Shown: positions 13,609 through 19,719 of the stretch, in pieces | Numbering within the stretch: the first letter of the stretch is position 1 | Layout: each line of letters opens with the position of its first letter | Assembly: GCF_000423705.1 (NCBI RefSeq) | Contig: NZ_KE384083.1 | Location: forward strand, 186,001-250,000 | Length of the DNA stretch: 64,000 nt | Source of the DNA: Stappia stellulata DSM 5886 | GTDB taxonomy: Bacteria > Pseudomonadota > Alphaproteobacteria > Rhizobiales > Stappiaceae | Reading direction: 5' to 3' | Translations under genes and position numbers: made by a program | Notes under the pieces: model-generated | Seen by the model: only the letters and a program-made list of their open reading frames with translations | Told to the model about the DNA's origin: nothing | Databases searched by the model: none

Positions 13609-14156
13609 AGGCGGATCTCCGGTTGAGCGTGGGACGGTTTGAGCACGAGCGGCAGGCCGGCGGCGATCAGCACCACCGCGTCCGCCGCCTCGGCAATGGA
13701 TCTGTTGAGGCGCCCCTGCGCATCGCGAAAGCGGCGCGCCAGGGCATTTTCCGGCACGATGCCCGAGCCGACTTCATTGGTGACGCAAACGACGGGGCCG
13801 GCTGCCGCGGCAAGGGCCGACACCAGCGCAGCCGTTTCCGCCTCGATATCGGCCTCGGCGAACATCAGGTTGGAGAGCCAGAGCGTCAGACAGTCGACGA
13901 GGATCGCGCGTTCGGGCGTGCTTTCGCGCGCGATCACATCGGCGATGGCGCGCTGTTCCTCGATCGTTGCCCAGCCGTCGCCGCGCTGGATACGGTGACG
14001 CGCCACACGCTCTTCCATTTCTGCGTCATGGGGGGTGCAGGTCGCCACATAGACGGGCGCGAGCCGGCTGTCGCGAATCAATGCTTCCGCATAGACGCTC
14101 TTGCCCGAGCGCGCGCCGCCCGTCACCAACACGCAATGCGCGGCGGGAACGGTCAT
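13605..14156 (-). CDS. cobP: Bifunctional adenosylcobinamide kinase/guanylyltransferase (CobP/CobU)
   Basis: 183 aa. N-terminal Walker A VTGGARSGKSVYAE, the guanylylation region RVARHRIQRGDGW with the candidate His, VDCLTLWLSN and VTNEVGSGIVPE are diagnostic. It phosphorylates adenosylcobinamide and converts it to the GDP derivative. It is the first gene after the cobalamin riboswitch, starting about 125 bp downstream of the aptamer, and its stop overlaps the cobW start. Confidence 0.95.
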   Translation of the reverse strand: MTVPAAHCVLVTGGARSGKSVYAEALIRDSRLAPVYVATCTPHDAEMEERVARHRIQRGDGWATIEEQRAIADVIARESTPERAILVDCLTLWLSNLMFAEADIEAETAALVSALAAAAGPVVCVTNEVGSGIVPENALARRFRDAQGRLNRSIAEAADAVVLIAAGLPLVLKPSHAQPEIRL

Positions 14157-14671
14157 GGATGCCGCACGCCCGACGGCAGACGAATTGCGGGACAGGAGCC
14201 GACGGAAAATGCCCGTCCGGCGAAATGCGAAATCATATGGCAGGCCTCCTGCCGTCCACCCGACGGCTTGCGACGTTTTTCCCGTTCCGGCTCGTCTCCT
14301 GGCTTACGGGTCGTCGCCGGTCCTTGCCCTTCCCGGACACGATGCGTGTCCAGTGGTCTGCGCAAGGGGGCTCGCCGCTCACAGTTGCGGGGGCAGCTGC
14401 GGATTCGGGAGCCCGGATTGGGTCCTCCCCCACCGCATTCCGACTTTCCCCTTCCCTTGAGGCTTGAGCCTGCGCGGGAAGGACCGGAGGCCAAGTCATA
14501 ACCCGGCACGGTCCGCGCAACAAGCGCAGGTGCATTTCCCGCCACATGCGCGCGCAATGCGTTGAAAACCCCGCTTGTGGAAAAGTTTTTGGGACAAGGC
14601 CCTTGGCAAGGCGGGCATCCGTTTGCTATATGCTCGCCACCGACGCGATGCAGGACATCGCTCGAGAGTGT
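14157..14671. other. Intergenic region between cobP and tRNA-Asn
   Basis: 515 bp with no convincing coding frame. It holds the minus-strand cobalamin riboswitch, the leader between aptamer and cobP, the cob operon promoter (somewhere above about 14480), and the tRNA-Asn promoter close to 14600-14671. Confidence 0.7.
14283..14470 (-). ncRNA. Cobalamin (AdoCbl) riboswitch
   Basis: Read on the minus strand, the leader contains, in order, GGGAAAGTCGGAATGCGGTG, CTGCCCCCGCAACTGTGAGC, ACCACTG, GGGAAGG and the B12 box AAGCCAGGAGACGAGCC. The core of the box occupies 14289-14304. This is the full conserved series of the cobalamin aptamer. It precedes cobP and should lower expression of the cobP-cobQ operon when adenosylcobalamin is abundant. 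I did not define the expression platform; boundaries are approximate. Confidence 0.93.
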
Positions 14672-14747
14672 TCCCCGGTAGCTCAGTTGGTAGAGCAAGC
14701 GGCTGTTAACCGCTGGGTCGCTGGTTCGAGTCCGGCCCGGGGAGCCA
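14672..14747 (+). tRNA. tRNA-Asn (anticodon GTT)
   Basis: 76-nt cloverleaf. Acceptor TCCCCGG pairs with CCGGGGA, with discriminator G and encoded CCA (14745-14747). The D-arm is GCTCAGTTGGTAGAGC, the anticodon stem GCGGCT/AACCGC has GTT at 14705-14707, and the T-arm contains GGTTCGAGTCC. It lies immediately upstream of the Roco-TIR gene, and tRNA genes are common island integration sites. I saw no second copy of its 3' end within the window. Confidence 0.97.
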
Positions 14748-14899
14748 TTCTCCTTTTTCCAAAAATTCTTCCGTACTCACGTCTTGCAAGCGTTGACCCC
14801 CAACGGATTGCACGTCAGGCGTTTCCCGTTCCATTGCGTGGACTTCCGGCTGTATGCTTTGAATTCGTCATTCGATTCAAGCATTGAGGGGGTCTTGCC

Positions 14900-17800
14900 T
14901 TGCGCGACCGAGATCACGCCGCCTCGGCTTCCGGGACCGAGGAGGCTCTGCGCCGGATCGCGATATGCAAGACCGACAGAAGCGAAGACCTCGACCTTGG
15001 CGGCCTCGCCTTGCAGGACGTCCCGGAAGAGATCTTGGAGCTGACATGGCTGAAACGGCTTTACCTCGGCCTTGCGGCAGACGCCCGCAAAAAGCCGGTC
15101 GTTGAGCTTTCCGACACAGAATCATGCAACGCGTTCCGCGCATTGCCGAATGCTCTCTCCTCTGCGCTGCCGCACCTGGAAGAGCTCGACTGCTCCTACA
15201 CCGAAGTGACCGACCTCACTCCGCTCACCGGCCTGACCGCGCTGCAGAACCTCGACTGCTACGACACGAAGGTGGACGACCTCACTCCGCTCACGGGAAT
15301 GACCGCACTGCAAAGCCTCGACTGTTCCGTCACGAAGGTGGCCGACCTCACTCCGCTCACAGGCCTGACCGCGCTGCAGAGCCTCGCCTGCTTCAGCACG
15401 AAGGTGGCCGACCTCACTCCGCTCACAGGCCTGACCGCGCTGCAGAGCCTCGCCTGCTTCAGCACGAAGGTGGCCGACCTCACTCCGCTCAAAGGCCTGA
15501 CCGCGCTGAAGAGCCTCAGCTGCTCCGGCACGAAGGTGGACGACCTCACTCCGCTCACGGGAATGACCGCACTGCAAAGCCTCGACTGTTCCGTCACGAA
15601 GGTGGCCGACCTCACACCGCTCAAGGGACTGACGTCGCTGCAAAGCTTCGAATTCTTCGAAACCCCGGTGGCTGACCTTGCCCCGCTCACCGGGCTCACC
15701 GCGCTGCAGAGCCTTGTCTGCTCCGACACGAAAGTCACCGATCTCACCCCGCTCTCGGGCCTGACGGCGCTGCGGCGCCTTGTTTGCTGCGAAGCACAAA
15801 TCGAGGTCCCGCCACCGCACCACGTCTGGATGGGGAACGCGCTGGAAAACCTCCATCTTTTTCGAACGAGCATCCCGGGGATCCCGTCGGAAGTCCTCTC
15901 CTCCAGCTATGGCGACAACTGTCTCGATTCGTTGCGCGCCCATCTCGCCGATCTCGGCGACACGCCGGTCGAGATGACCGATGCCAAGCTCATGATCCTC
16001 GGCAACGGGCGCGTGGGAAAAACCCAGGTCTTGCGCCGGTTGCGCGGTGCGGCCTTCGAGGAAAATGCGGATTCCACCCACGGCATTCTCGTGGCCGATC
16101 TCCCCGTTCCGGAGCGTGCCGCCGGCGATCCCGCGCGGTTTCATGTCTGGGATTTCGGCGGACAGGATATCTATCACGGCACGCATGCGCTCTTCCTGCG
16201 CAGCCGCGCGGTCTTCATCATCTGCTGGACCCCGGAGATGGAAGACAGCGCAACCCATGAGTATGACGGCCTGCGCTTTCGCAATTATCCGCTCGCCTAT
16301 TGGCTCGATCACGTGCGCCAGTTCGCCGGCGTCGATGCGCCCGTTCTCGTCGTGCAGACGCAATGCGACGAGATCAAGGATGAGCGCGGTCTTCCGGAGG
16401 CGGCCCGGGACGCCCTCGAGGCGTTTTCCGGTTTCAAGCGCGCCCTTCATACCAGTGCGCGCGAGGGTCACGGATTTGCAAGCCTCAAGGAGGCTTTGAA
16501 CCGGGCCTATACGTACTTCAACCCGCCCCTGATCGGGCCGGGTCGCGCAAGCGTGAAGGCACAGATCGAGGCCTGGCAGGCAGAAGACAGCGGGCGACCC
16601 GCCAACAAACGCAAGCACCAGACGCTGAGCTACACGGCCTATCGGCAGCTATGCGAGAGGACCGGCACTGTCTCAGACCCGGCGATGCTCCTGAAGTTCC
16701 TGCATAACGCGGGAACCGTGTTCCACCGGGACGGCATCCTGCACGACAAGATCATCCTCGATCAGCAATGGGCGCTGGAAGCGATCTATGCCGTCTTCCA
16801 CCGGGAGCTGTGCTACCGCGCGCTCAAGAACGCGGGCGGGCGCTTCAACCGGCAGGATCTGGGGCTGTATCTGTGGGACGCGACCTATTCGCTCGAGGAG
16901 CAGCGGCTGTTCCTGTCGATGATGCAAAGCTGCGGGATCTGCTTTGCGCATCGCACCGCCCATGACCTCGATCCCGACACGACCGAGTATATCGCGCCGG
17001 AACTTCTGCCCGCAGGGCGTCCGGGCCACGTGACGCGACTGTGGGAGGTCGAGAGCGAGCGGGAGCGAGAAATCGAGTTCGCCTGCGATGTCCTGCCCGA
17101 GACGCTCATCCGCGGCATCATCTCGAAAATCGGACAACGGGCCGGCATCGACGGCGACTACTGGGCAAGCGGGCTCTCCGTCTTCGAAGCGGGATCGGGC
17201 ACGCACATCCTGATCGAACAGATGCGCTCCGGACCGGACAGCTGGGGCGGACGCATCGTCCTGCGCCTGCGCCCGCAGGACGACTCGTCCACGCTCAGCC
17301 CGGTTGCAGTGGAGCTCCTGGTCGAGACGATAGAACGGGAGGCCGCACGATTTGGCATTTCGCTCGACATCGAGGGAGATGAGATGCGGGCTCGTCTCCG
17401 AAGCGCACAGGAAGAGCCCGCCCTGGCGTTTTCGCAACCCGGGTCGGACGTCCCCGAATGCTTCGTGTCCTATGCTTGGGCGGATGACAAGACGCCCGAG
17501 GGGCGCGACCGCGAGGCCGGCGTCGACCGTCTTTGCGAGGCGTATGAAGGGCGCGGCATTCACATCATCCGCGACAAGGCCAATCTCGGCTTCGGCGACA
17601 GCATCCCGAAATTCATGAAGCGCATCGGCGGCGGGGACCGTGTCTTCGTGTTCCTGAGCGACAAATACCTGACGTCACCCAATTGCATGTTCGAACTGTC
17701 GGAGATCTGGCGCACCGCGCGACGCGACGACGACGCCTTCATGGACCGCGTCCGCGTGTTCACGGTCGGGACGGTCGACATCTGGAGCCCGGCCGGACGG

Positions 17801-18031
17801 CTCACGCACGCCGCGCACTGGGAGGCCGAATTCGAACGGTTCAACGGTCTCGTCAAGGAGCATGGCGCGCATCTGCTGCCGGAGAAGGATCAGGCAGCTT
17901 TGCGGCGCATGCGCGAGTTCGCCCATTCAACCGGCGACATCCTGTCGACAATCGCCGACAGGGTGCAGCCGCGCGATTTCGACGGTTTCCTGAAATGGGG
18001 CTTCGACGATCCGCCGAACGAGGGTGATTGA
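14900..18031 (+). CDS. LRR-Roc-COR-TIR protein (bacterial Roco with C-terminal TIR domain)
   Basis: 1043 aa. Residues about 104-301 hold nine 22-residue leucine-rich repeats (consensus DLTPLTGLTALQSLxC). A Roc GTPase follows with P-loop GNGRVGKT (368-375), DFGGQ (418-422) and TQCD (487-490), then a COR-like region to about 840. A TIR domain from about 853 starts CFVSYAWADD and contains YLTSPNCMFELSEIW, where Glu932 aligns with the catalytic glutamate of NADase TIRs. Start is TTG at 14900, seven bases after GAGGGGG. The gene is monocistronic, between tRNA-Asn and a terminator. Family architecture implies GTP-controlled signalling with NAD cleavage as a possible output; a defence role is inference. 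Confidence 0.93.
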   Translation: MRDRDHAASASGTEEALRRIAICKTDRSEDLDLGGLALQDVPEEILELTWLKRLYLGLAADARKKPVVELSDTESCNAFRALPNALSSALPHLEELDCSYTEVTDLTPLTGLTALQNLDCYDTKVDDLTPLTGMTALQSLDCSVTKVADLTPLTGLTALQSLACFSTKVADLTPLTGLTALQSLACFSTKVADLTPLKGLTALKSLSCSGTKVDDLTPLTGMTALQSLDCSVTKVADLTPLKGLTSLQSFEFFETPVADLAPLTGLTALQSLVCSDTKVTDLTPLSGLTALRRLVCCEAQIEVPPPHHVWMGNALENLHLFRTSIPGIPSEVLSSSYGDNCLDSLRAHLADLGDTPVEMTDAKLMILGNGRVGKTQVLRRLRGAAFEENADSTHGILVADLPVPERAAGDPARFHVWDFGGQDIYHGTHALFLRSRAVFIICWTPEMEDSATHEYDGLRFRNYPLAYWLDHVRQFAGVDAPVLVVQTQCDEIKDERGLPEAARDALEAFSGFKRALHTSAREGHGFASLKEALNRAYTYFNPPLIGPGRASVKAQIEAWQAEDSGRPANKRKHQTLSYTAYRQLCERTGTVSDPAMLLKFLHNAGTVFHRDGILHDKIILDQQWALEAIYAVFHRELCYRALKNAGGRFNRQDLGLYLWDATYSLEEQRLFLSMMQSCGICFAHRTAHDLDPDTTEYIAPELLPAGRPGHVTRLWEVESEREREIEFACDVLPETLIRGIISKIGQRAGIDGDYWASGLSVFEAGSGTHILIEQMRSGPDSWGGRIVLRLRPQDDSSTLSPVAVELLVETIEREAARFGISLDIEGDEMRARLRSAQEEPALAFSQPGSDVPECFVSYAWADDKTPEGRDREAGVDRLCEAYEGRGIHIIRDKANLGFGDSIPKFMKRIGGGDRVFVFLSDKYLTSPNCMFELSEIWRTARRDDDAFMDRVRVFTVGTVDIWSPAGRLTHAAHWEAEFERFNGLVKEHGAHLLPEKDQAALRRMREFAHSTGDILSTIADRVQPRDFDGFLKWGFDDPPNEGD
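15206..15799 (+). repeat. Tandem 66-bp repeats encoding the leucine-rich repeats
   Basis: Nine consecutive 66-bp units. GTGGCCGACCTCACTCCGCT recurs at 15338 and 15404, and the 66-bp units starting there are identical in DNA sequence. A two-unit block containing GGAATGACCGCACTGCAAAG also recurs (about 15270-15350 and 15536-15616). Identity at synonymous sites indicates recent expansion or gene conversion. Confidence 0.92.
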
Positions 18032-18085
18032 CCCGTCCTGAGCGACGGACCATGCGCAACGCCCACAGCGCCTTTCCCAAACGCA

Positions 18086-18118
18086 AAACGACGCGGGAGG
18101 CCATCTCCCGCGCCGTTT
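18086..18118. terminator. Bidirectional terminator-like hairpin
   Basis: Arms AAACGACGCGGGAG and CTCCCGCGCCGTTT pair over 14 bp with one mismatch around a 5-nt loop. A-rich and T-rich flanks make it usable from both sides. It lies between the convergent Roco-TIR gene and ask. Confidence 0.75.
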
Positions 18119-18162
18119 CGTTCCTGTCTTTTGCTGAGGCCGTTTCCGCCTCAAATTGCCTC

Positions 18163-19719
18163 TCAGGCCGCCTGCGACAGCGCTGCGGGCCTGCTGGTGT
18201 CGGCACCGGTGTCATCGGTTGCGGCCGGACTCAATGCGTTGGCGTCACCTTCGCAAAAAGCCTGGTGCAGCGCCTTGACCGCCTTGTCCTTGTCCTTGCC
18301 GCCGACGACGAACTGGACGTCCACCTTGCGGCCGGTGTCCTGCGAGGAGATCACCTCGATGCCGGCGGCGTCGAGCGCCTGCAGGCCCTGCAGCATGACG
18401 CTGAGACCGGTCAGGTCGCGCCCGATCACCGACACGATGGCCGAGCGACGGGTGGCGATCCGCGCGGACGGATAGCGCTTCATCAGGTCCTGCTCGACCC
18501 GCTTCAAGAGCTTCAGCGGCGCCTCGACGTGGTGCACGATCGAGTTGGCGTTCGACACCTTGGACACAATCCGCACGTTGTGGCGCGTCAGCACGTCGAG
18601 AATCGCGGCGTCATAGCCTTTCACGCCGACCATATCCTGCTCGAACAGCTCAAAGGAGGTGACCGGAATGCCGGTGACCATCTCCACGCCCGGCGTTTCC
18701 GCCGGTTCGGCGTCGATCAGCGTGCCCGGATCCTCCGGCTCGAACGCATTGGTGACGCGCAGCGGCACGCCCGCCTGGCGAAGCGTCTTGGCGGCGTTGG
18801 GGTGGATTGCCTCCATGCCCATGTTGGACAGCTGATCGGCGACGTCGTAGTTCGTCCGGCCGATCTTGCGCACCGCATCCGTTCCCACCAGGCGCGGATC
18901 GGCGCTGGAGAGATGGAACTCCTTGTGAATGATCGCCTCGCGGGCACCCGACAGGGCGGCGATCTGCGCGAAAGTAACCTCGGAGTAACCCCGGTCATAC
19001 TCCCGCATCAGGCCTTCGCGGCACTGGGCATAGCCCGTAACGATCGCCAGCTCGCGGCCTACGTCGATCTTTGAGAACGCCGTCTCGATGCGCTCGTCGA
19101 GGCTCGGCTGGCTCTCGTCGCGCCAGCCCGAAAGGTCGACGAACCGCGCGTTGACGTTGTGGCGGCGCAGGAGCAGCGTCAGGCTGTTGGCCGAATGCGC
19201 CTCGCCCAGGCCCGACAGCAACTCGCGCGTCGTCATCATGTGTTCCGACAGGTTGAAATGACCGTAGGAGCACAGACGCTGCAGATCGAGAAGGCAGCCG
19301 CGCGCGCCCTCGATGCGCTCGCGCACGAATTCGTCGGCGGAATCGCGGTCGGCGGATTCATCGAAAATCTCGCCGTTGATGCGATACATCTCGCGCGCGA
19401 CGTCGTTCAGGGCCTCCATCCAGCCGTGATCCTCGTCGGCATCCGCAAACAGCGCATAAACGCCCGGCTTGCCGGTCTTCTTGTCTTCCAAGAGCTTGTT
19501 GGTGATGCCGCCGAAGGCCGACACCACGAAGACACGGTTGTACAGGTCGTCCTCGCCGCGATTGCCGACCAGGATCGTGTCGACAAGCTCGCGGGCGCGG
19601 CTCATCGAGGTGCCGCCGATCTTTTCAACGGTGTGCGCGCCGGCCGGCGAAGGCGTCGCTGCATCCACCGGGGCGGCCTGGTGAGAAGAAGAACCGGTCT
19701 GTTCATTGAAGTTGGTCAT
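18163..19719 (-). CDS. ask: Ectoine-associated aspartate kinase (Ask_Ect)
   Basis: 518 aa. The kinase domain starts at HTVEKIGGTSMSRARELVDT (about residue 29), with FVVSAFGGITNKLL and later the two C-terminal ACT domains (…VSNANSIVHHVEAPLKLL…, …VSVIGRDLTGLSVMLQGLQALD…). The HTVEKIGGTSM type is the specialised aspartokinase found behind ectABC. It supplies aspartyl phosphate for aspartate semialdehyde, the ectoine precursor. The first 28 residues are low-complexity, so the true start may be further in. It is separated from ectC by 177 bp. Confidence 0.93.
   Translation of the reverse strand: MTNFNEQTGSSSHQAAPVDAATPSPAGAHTVEKIGGTSMSRARELVDTILVGNRGEDDLYNRVFVVSAFGGITNKLLEDKKTGKPGVYALFADADEDHGWMEALNDVAREMYRINGEIFDESADRDSADEFVRERIEGARGCLLDLQRLCSYGHFNLSEHMMTTRELLSGLGEAHSANSLTLLLRRHNVNARFVDLSGWRDESQPSLDERIETAFSKIDVGRELAIVTGYAQCREGLMREYDRGYSEVTFAQIAALSGAREAIIHKEFHLSSADPRLVGTDAVRKIGRTNYDVADQLSNMGMEAIHPNAAKTLRQAGVPLRVTNAFEPEDPGTLIDAEPAETPGVEMVTGIPVTSFELFEQDMVGVKGYDAAILDVLTRHNVRIVSKVSNANSIVHHVEAPLKLLKRVEQDLMKRYPSARIATRRSAIVSVIGRDLTGLSVMLQGLQALDAAGIEVISSQDTGRKVDVQFVVGGKDKDKAVKALHQAFCEGDANALSPAATDDTGADTSRPAALSQAA

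Follow-up and report, generated by a model that had tools for sequence, protein, structure and literature searches.

A Roc-COR GTPase with a C-terminal TIR domain in a variable tRNA-Asn slot of Stappia stellulata: a candidate anti-phage receptor

Introduction

All prokaryotic Roco proteins known in 2019 were placed in a simple LRR-Roc-COR group (PMC6337361), LRR standing for leucine-rich repeat. Work with the Chlorobium tepidum Roco (CtRoco) has described a dimer-monomer cycle in which GTP drives monomerisation and the LRR-Roc linker serves as a hinge (PMC11052575; PMC5714945), and the protein is also presented as a structural model for the switch of LRRK2, the Parkinson's protein (PMC11052575). 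Subsequent work by Kaur et al. in 2021 described bacterial AP-GTPase-COR proteins whose LRRs evolve rapidly and whose C-terminal domains are of at least 24 kinds, including TIR, and predicted that they counter invaders (PMC8195603). Here we describe a protein of this kind from Stappia stellulata DSM 5886, encoded in a stretch of 64,000 nucleotides (contig NZ_KE384083.1, positions 186,001 to 250,000 of the forward strand) that is called the window below and supplies all coordinates given without a locus label. Its LRRs, Roc GTPase, COR domain and C-terminal TIR domain are joined in one gene, and the location of this gene and of its relatives suggests an anti-phage suicide switch. By its domain order the protein belongs to a class already predicted in 2021, whose role was there a prediction and not a tested one; a literature search on bacterial Rocos in phage defence or immunity, with subscription papers mostly not covered, found no experimental test.

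Architecture of the window protein

The gene occupies positions 14900..18031 on the forward strand as an intact open reading frame (ORF) of 1043 residues with a TTG start, and it is the sole match of its kind in the 4.6-Mb source genome. Because the open frame around it runs to just 1047 codons, the start has little room to shift. A GAGGGGG motif (14886..14892, forward strand), read from the sequence as the probable ribosome binding site, ends 7 nt ahead of the TTG, and the homologue of a same-genus genome (G008) aligns with the window protein from residue 1. A sequence-only reading of this DNA had proposed exactly this start, together with nine LRRs, a Roc domain with G1, G3 and G4 motifs, a “COR-like segment” and a TIR domain that keeps a catalytic-type glutamate, all in one gene. 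Pfam matches to each part of the 1043-residue protein, described below, bear that proposal out, and the COR-like segment proves to be a true COR domain.

The TIR domain and its C-terminal extension take up residues 854-1043 (17459..18028, forward strand). Pfam TIR_2 matches residues 855-942 at 1.2e-8, above its curated cut-off, and an AlphaFold2 model of residues 843-1043, with a pLDDT (predicted local distance difference test score) of 92.7, has a clear TIR fold when compared by VIA-align; the structure prediction proposed earlier as a check, run on the TIR part, thus revealed no loss of fold or of the glutamate. Scaffold-type animal TIRs fit the model equally well as enzymatic ones, and the predicted fold by itself cannot separate enzyme from scaffold. 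The candidate catalytic residue is Glu932 (codon 17693..17695, forward strand), the glutamate of CMFEL in an S-x-x-C-x-x-E-L motif. All 66 aligned TIR proteins have it, a count that comprises the window protein and all 65 relatives with a TIR match by tblastn, near copies included; two further sets, A3 and A4, comprised the window protein plus 61 of those 65 (four near copies dropped) and 52 of them, respectively. In the TIR profile, whose best fit is to the TIRs of plant TIR-NLRs (nucleotide-binding LRR receptors), Glu932 aligns with the glutamate of Roq1, L6 and RUN1. The tryptophan of WxxxE, a TIR-enzyme motif not known to be essential, is replaced by Asn928 and is present in one of the 66 proteins. 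The domain probably destroys NAD.

The switch is a Roc GTPase domain at residues 363-526 (15986..16477, forward strand), delimited by Pfam Roc (363-490; 8.9e-19, above the curated cut-off), Pfam Ras (363-526) and the PDB structures of CtRoco and LRRK2 Roc. All three motifs of the earlier reading are present: the P-loop GNGRVGKT with Lys374 (residues 368-375; 16001..16024, forward strand; found by motif reading and overlapping a scan motif), the G3 motif WDFGGQD from residue 417 and a G4-like TQCD at residues 487-490. Gly373, Lys374 and WDFGGQD are invariant across the 66 proteins, in part through selection since such motifs were scan patterns, and the G4 motif varies. COR-A follows at residues 569-703 (16604..17008, forward strand; Pfam COR-A 5.7e-22, above the curated cut-off), and COR-B lies at about residues 704-842 (17009..17425, forward strand; approximate borders). 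Several relatives match Pfam's COR-B model. The window protein has no such match listed, so that the COR-B call rests on the relatives’ profile, which aligns over its positions 3-451 of 677 with 3dpu, the Roc-COR structure of CtRoco. Two marks of a Roco protein, a Roc GTPase domain and a COR straight after it, are both present. A true NLR was also considered and set aside: none of the 12 Pfam families with matches up to E 1 is NB-ARC or NACHT, and the switch is Roc.

Upstream of the switch, a 66-bp tandem array at 15181..15780 (forward strand) encodes nine internalin-type repeats of 22 residues, recognised by Tandem Repeats Finder (9.1 copies, 81% matches), unit comparison, Pfam LRR_4 (1.2e-34, above the curated cut-off), the PDB internalins and the CtRoco LRR. 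Units 4 and 5 are identical at 64 of 66 bases and a stretch of 95 bases is exactly repeated at one-unit spacing, which points to recent change in part of the array.

The tRNA-Asn slot

The gene stands between tRNA-Asn (GTT; 14672..14747, forward strand; ARAGORN), which forms the left border of a variable slot, and ask (18163-19719 in the ORF listing), which lies on the reverse strand, opposite to it. By reading, no other convincing gene occurs between the two. Local flank alignments with a same-genus genome (G005, locus L034) place the variable segment at 14758..18075, a strandless feature with approximate borders, the right one taken from a gappy alignment; G005 has about 204 bp in its place.

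All 14 same-genus genomes have cobU, with tRNA-Asn at a distance of 0.5-1.6 kb from it. Six of them also have an ask match, which lies across tRNA-Asn from cobU in five; in the sixth (G001), ask is on a different contig from the tRNA. The five tRNA-Asn-to-ask intervals carry a TIR-Roco in two cases, other genes in two and none in one. The window genome has the TIR-Roco as sole gene, and G008 has a TIR-Roco of 1268 residues together with an ATP-grasp-like gene, a GNAT-like gene and a weakly matched polysaccharide-synthesis gene. The G007 interval holds a weak alpha/beta-hydrolase match and one protein without an assigned family, and in G005 tRNA and ask stand 317 bp apart with none of these genes in between. 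Behind the tRNA of the other nine genomes there are differing mechanically called ORFs, some common to a few genomes. The sequence-only reading had put the gene alone right after tRNA-Asn and had asked whether this interval varies in related genomes or the gene is instead fixed and syntenic: it is indeed alone, the content is variable, and a TIR-Roco is found in two of the 14 same-genus genomes. That the window genome and G008 have it at the same position is consistent with inheritance from a common ancestor within the genus.

An integrase-made island with attachment (att) repeats was considered and rejected, since the final 12-20 bases of this tRNA occur just once in 14000-19000; by reading, no integrase was recognised in the variable segment. 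As an observation in its own right, the remaining interval (G011; L033:3154-7328) encodes a protein of 1117 residues with about 11 tetratricopeptide repeats (TPRs) and below-cut-off matches to AAA_16 and nSTAND_NTPase5, along with a second protein of 223 residues without a Pfam or PADLOC match. The two are possibly an undescribed two-gene defence system. PADLOC gave no matches for the seven slot proteins of G007, G008 and G011.

Phage-like contigs and other mobile elements

A scan of viral contigs yielded four relatives (L138 to L141). Two of them encode LRR-Roc-COR-TIR proteins of 1266 residues (L138:4264-8064) and 1262 residues (L140:4276-8064) that are 97% alike. In L138 the gene is flanked by a CI repressor (Phage_CI_repr 4.3e-15, Phage_CI_C) and an integrase. 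An ORF of 276 residues precedes the gene and one of 299 residues follows it, and a CII-like activator lies beyond the repressor; by reading, the neighbours in L140 appear to be the same. L139 encodes a Roc-COR-TIR protein of 706 residues without recognised LRRs, together with an integrase gene and one of an origin-nicking family; we read these as P2-like elements. L141 has a Roc-COR match only. The CI repressor-integrase layout has been described as an anti-phage hotspot in Vibrionaceae (PMC9122126). This is the strongest contextual evidence for defence, drawn from a single such layout that two near-identical contigs share, together with L139. Directly downstream of the L139 gene lies a protein of 143 residues (L139:2357-2788; phrog_19896), which is a possible partner of the Roc-COR-TIR protein.

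The INPHARED phage genomes contained no match, and a re-scan of the viral contigs with the L138 protein returned nothing beyond L138 and L140. A TIR-only viral scan found two loci with partial, weak matches, and 12 of 72,556 plasmid records match, one of them over 80% or more of the query.

Distribution and effector exchange

Within its family, five of 87 genomes match a Roc-COR-TIR profile at E 1e-20 and three of 87 reach the TIR end; in the class, at least 10 of 385 match and at least seven reach the TIR end, lower bounds since at most three candidates were scored per genome. Both sets of counts take in the window genome, and the gene is sporadic within Alphaproteobacteria. A wider collection gave 318 confirmed relatives of a Roc-COR-TIR query. 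The best 80 of the 318 were analysed, and, this being the query by which they were chosen, the share with TIR is biased upward.

Sorted by effector, 68 of the 80 loci have TIR, two a GT4-conflict domain, two a weak NAD/FAD-binding Rossmann region and eight no assigned effector. TIR was found by tblastn in 65 of the 80 and by Pfam in three more (L106, L109 and L114), of which L106 ends within TIR and L114 scores exactly at the Pfam cut-off. Of the 15 loci in which tblastn found no TIR, 10 were examined with Pfam, that is, all except L053, L089, L094, L118 and L119. No TIR was found in these five or in L095 and L098, several of which are shortened (L118 is broken off by a contig end), and L121 has a C-terminal end without an assigned family. 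Effector exchange on related cores, a feature of the class of Kaur et al. (2021), is found among these best 80 loci.

Both kinds of replacement deserve mention in themselves. Two Roc-COR cores (L115:6016-8628 and L120:6031-8691) carry a C-terminal Pfam GT4-conflict glycosyltransferase domain, and this pair clusters with two TIR members at a support of 92 in a quick tree. Two verrucomicrobial proteins (L103:338-3205 and L117:6016-8841) have the weak Rossmann region at the effector place, possibly another NAD-related effector, and branch with four Chromatiaceae rows at a support of 97; a TIR is present in three of those rows. Elsewhere, a TIR-less LRR-Roc-COR gene in genome G014 (L039:6250-13784) is flanked by two RNA repair genes, one for a T4-type RNA ligase and one for an RtcR regulator; its LRR part is divided over two ORFs.

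The tree comprised 78 of the 80 loci (L118 and L119 omitted) plus the window and G008 proteins, and the quick LG+G4 search used leaves its finer branches unsure. Pseudomonadota account for 48 of the 80 rows of the tree, and the rest include Planctomycetota, Verrucomicrobiota, Nitrospirota, Acidobacteriota, Cyanobacteriota and Myxococcota, with two more phyla by a single row each; many rows are metagenome bins. The tree requires 12 phylum changes, where 8 is the least possible and shuffling gives a mean of 27.0. As phyla cluster beyond chance, exchange between them looks occasional in this sample.

Proposed role and alternatives

Taken together, the LRR-Roc-COR-TIR order, the predicted fold, the invariant Glu932, the variable slot, the sporadic distribution and the phage-like contigs favour an accessory, intracellular single-gene immune receptor, a role that we regard as fairly probable. 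By analogy with CtRoco, the LRRs would sense, the Roc-COR would switch and the TIR would act. The LRR array could recognise a product of the phage or some other sign that the cell is infected, and this recognition would shift the GTP cycle and assembly state of the Roc-COR. The shift could bring TIR domains together, which once assembled would cleave NAD+ by means of Glu932, so that the infected cell would stop growing or die ahead of phage release. For the window protein itself, both NAD cleavage and phage defence are what we infer. Identity to the G008 protein is 55% in the LRRs, 85% in Roc, 69% in COR and 74% in TIR, as expected if the repeats are a fast-changing sensor.

Compared with the protein of genome G021, however, the LRRs (47%) are not below COR (35%) or TIR (41%), which makes the support from sensor divergence mixed, and the 143-residue neighbour in L139 means that a partner is possible in relatives.

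Such a partner would suit what we consider the most probable alternative, itself an unlikely one: a GTP-gated TIR receptor that makes a cyclic-ADP-ribose-type signal for an unlinked effector, as in Thoeris, with no direct depletion of NAD+. Plant TIR-NLRs signal through small molecules, and theirs are the TIRs that fit the profile best. Plant and bacterial TIRs can produce cyclic-ADP-ribose-type signals (PMC10022894). In the window, however, no effector gene adjoins and the slot holds this gene alone, which favours direct NAD+ depletion over signal-making.

A slightly less probable alternative is that the protein is a housekeeping or developmental signalling Roco whose TIR mediates protein interaction. 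In animals TIRs frequently act as scaffolds, and these match the TIR model as well as enzymatic ones do. Rocos of Dictyostelium function in chemotaxis, division and development (PMC4104024). A housekeeping role would nevertheless sit poorly with sporadic presence, a slot that also has an empty form, carriage in phage-like contigs and an invariant glutamate. Least of all do we expect a protein acting on other organisms, such as a TIR effector delivered into a host: its LRRs resemble those of internalins in sequence, but the same query matches CtRoco from residue 90 through the LRRs, so that the likeness reflects repeat type, its core is a cytosolic-type GTPase, and the N-terminus is unlike a signal peptide (by reading, with no predictor run).

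If TIR-Rocos do defend against phage as accessory immune receptors, loss of NAD+ would give a direct readout of the GTP switch in a small system of one gene. An immune class so far predicted would then be open to testing, with the empty-slot relative and the copies in phage-like contigs as natural controls and constructs. It is conceivable, more tentatively, that prokaryotic Rocos, as bacterial relatives of LRRK2, are in general GTP-gated anti-phage receptors, in which opening or monomerisation of the Roc-COR by GTP releases the TIR, which then assembles and consumes NAD+. If so, their switch logic would be unlike the ATP-driven oligomerisation of NLR resistosomes, and the LRRK2 switch would originate in anti-viral immunity.

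Comparison with known systems

CtRoco (6hlu, 8r4b, 3dpu) is the best solved match and shares the LRR-Roc-COR order of the window protein; the match ends before the TIR, and CtRoco is absent from the 47 matches of the TIR profile. The bSEFIR family has a partial match to the TIR region (8.2e-7), and membership was rejected because just 69 of its 412 profile positions (37-105) are matched.

Plant TIR-NLRs such as Roq1, RPP1, RUN1 and L6 likewise combine an LRR sensor, a nucleotide switch and a TIR in one protein. Their order is TIR-NB-ARC-LRR, and their switch is a STAND ATPase; the window protein, in contrast, has a Roc-COR GTPase switch and a C-terminal TIR. The NLR plan suggested by the sequence-only reading therefore holds for the union of sensor, switch and TIR and fails for the kind of switch. 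Closer in setting is the TIR-STAND-TPR “TIR-NLR” of P4-like satellites, a single-gene repeat-switch-TIR defence protein from a mobile-element hotspot that was tested in E. coli (PMC9122126). It has a STAND NTPase and TPRs where the window protein has Roc-COR and LRRs. Closest of all is the class of Kaur et al. (2021), known by prediction (PMC8195603): as described there, it has the same order of LRR, AP-GTPase (Roc), COR and C-terminal effector, and the window protein differs from it not in kind but in standing alone in a tRNA-Asn slot.
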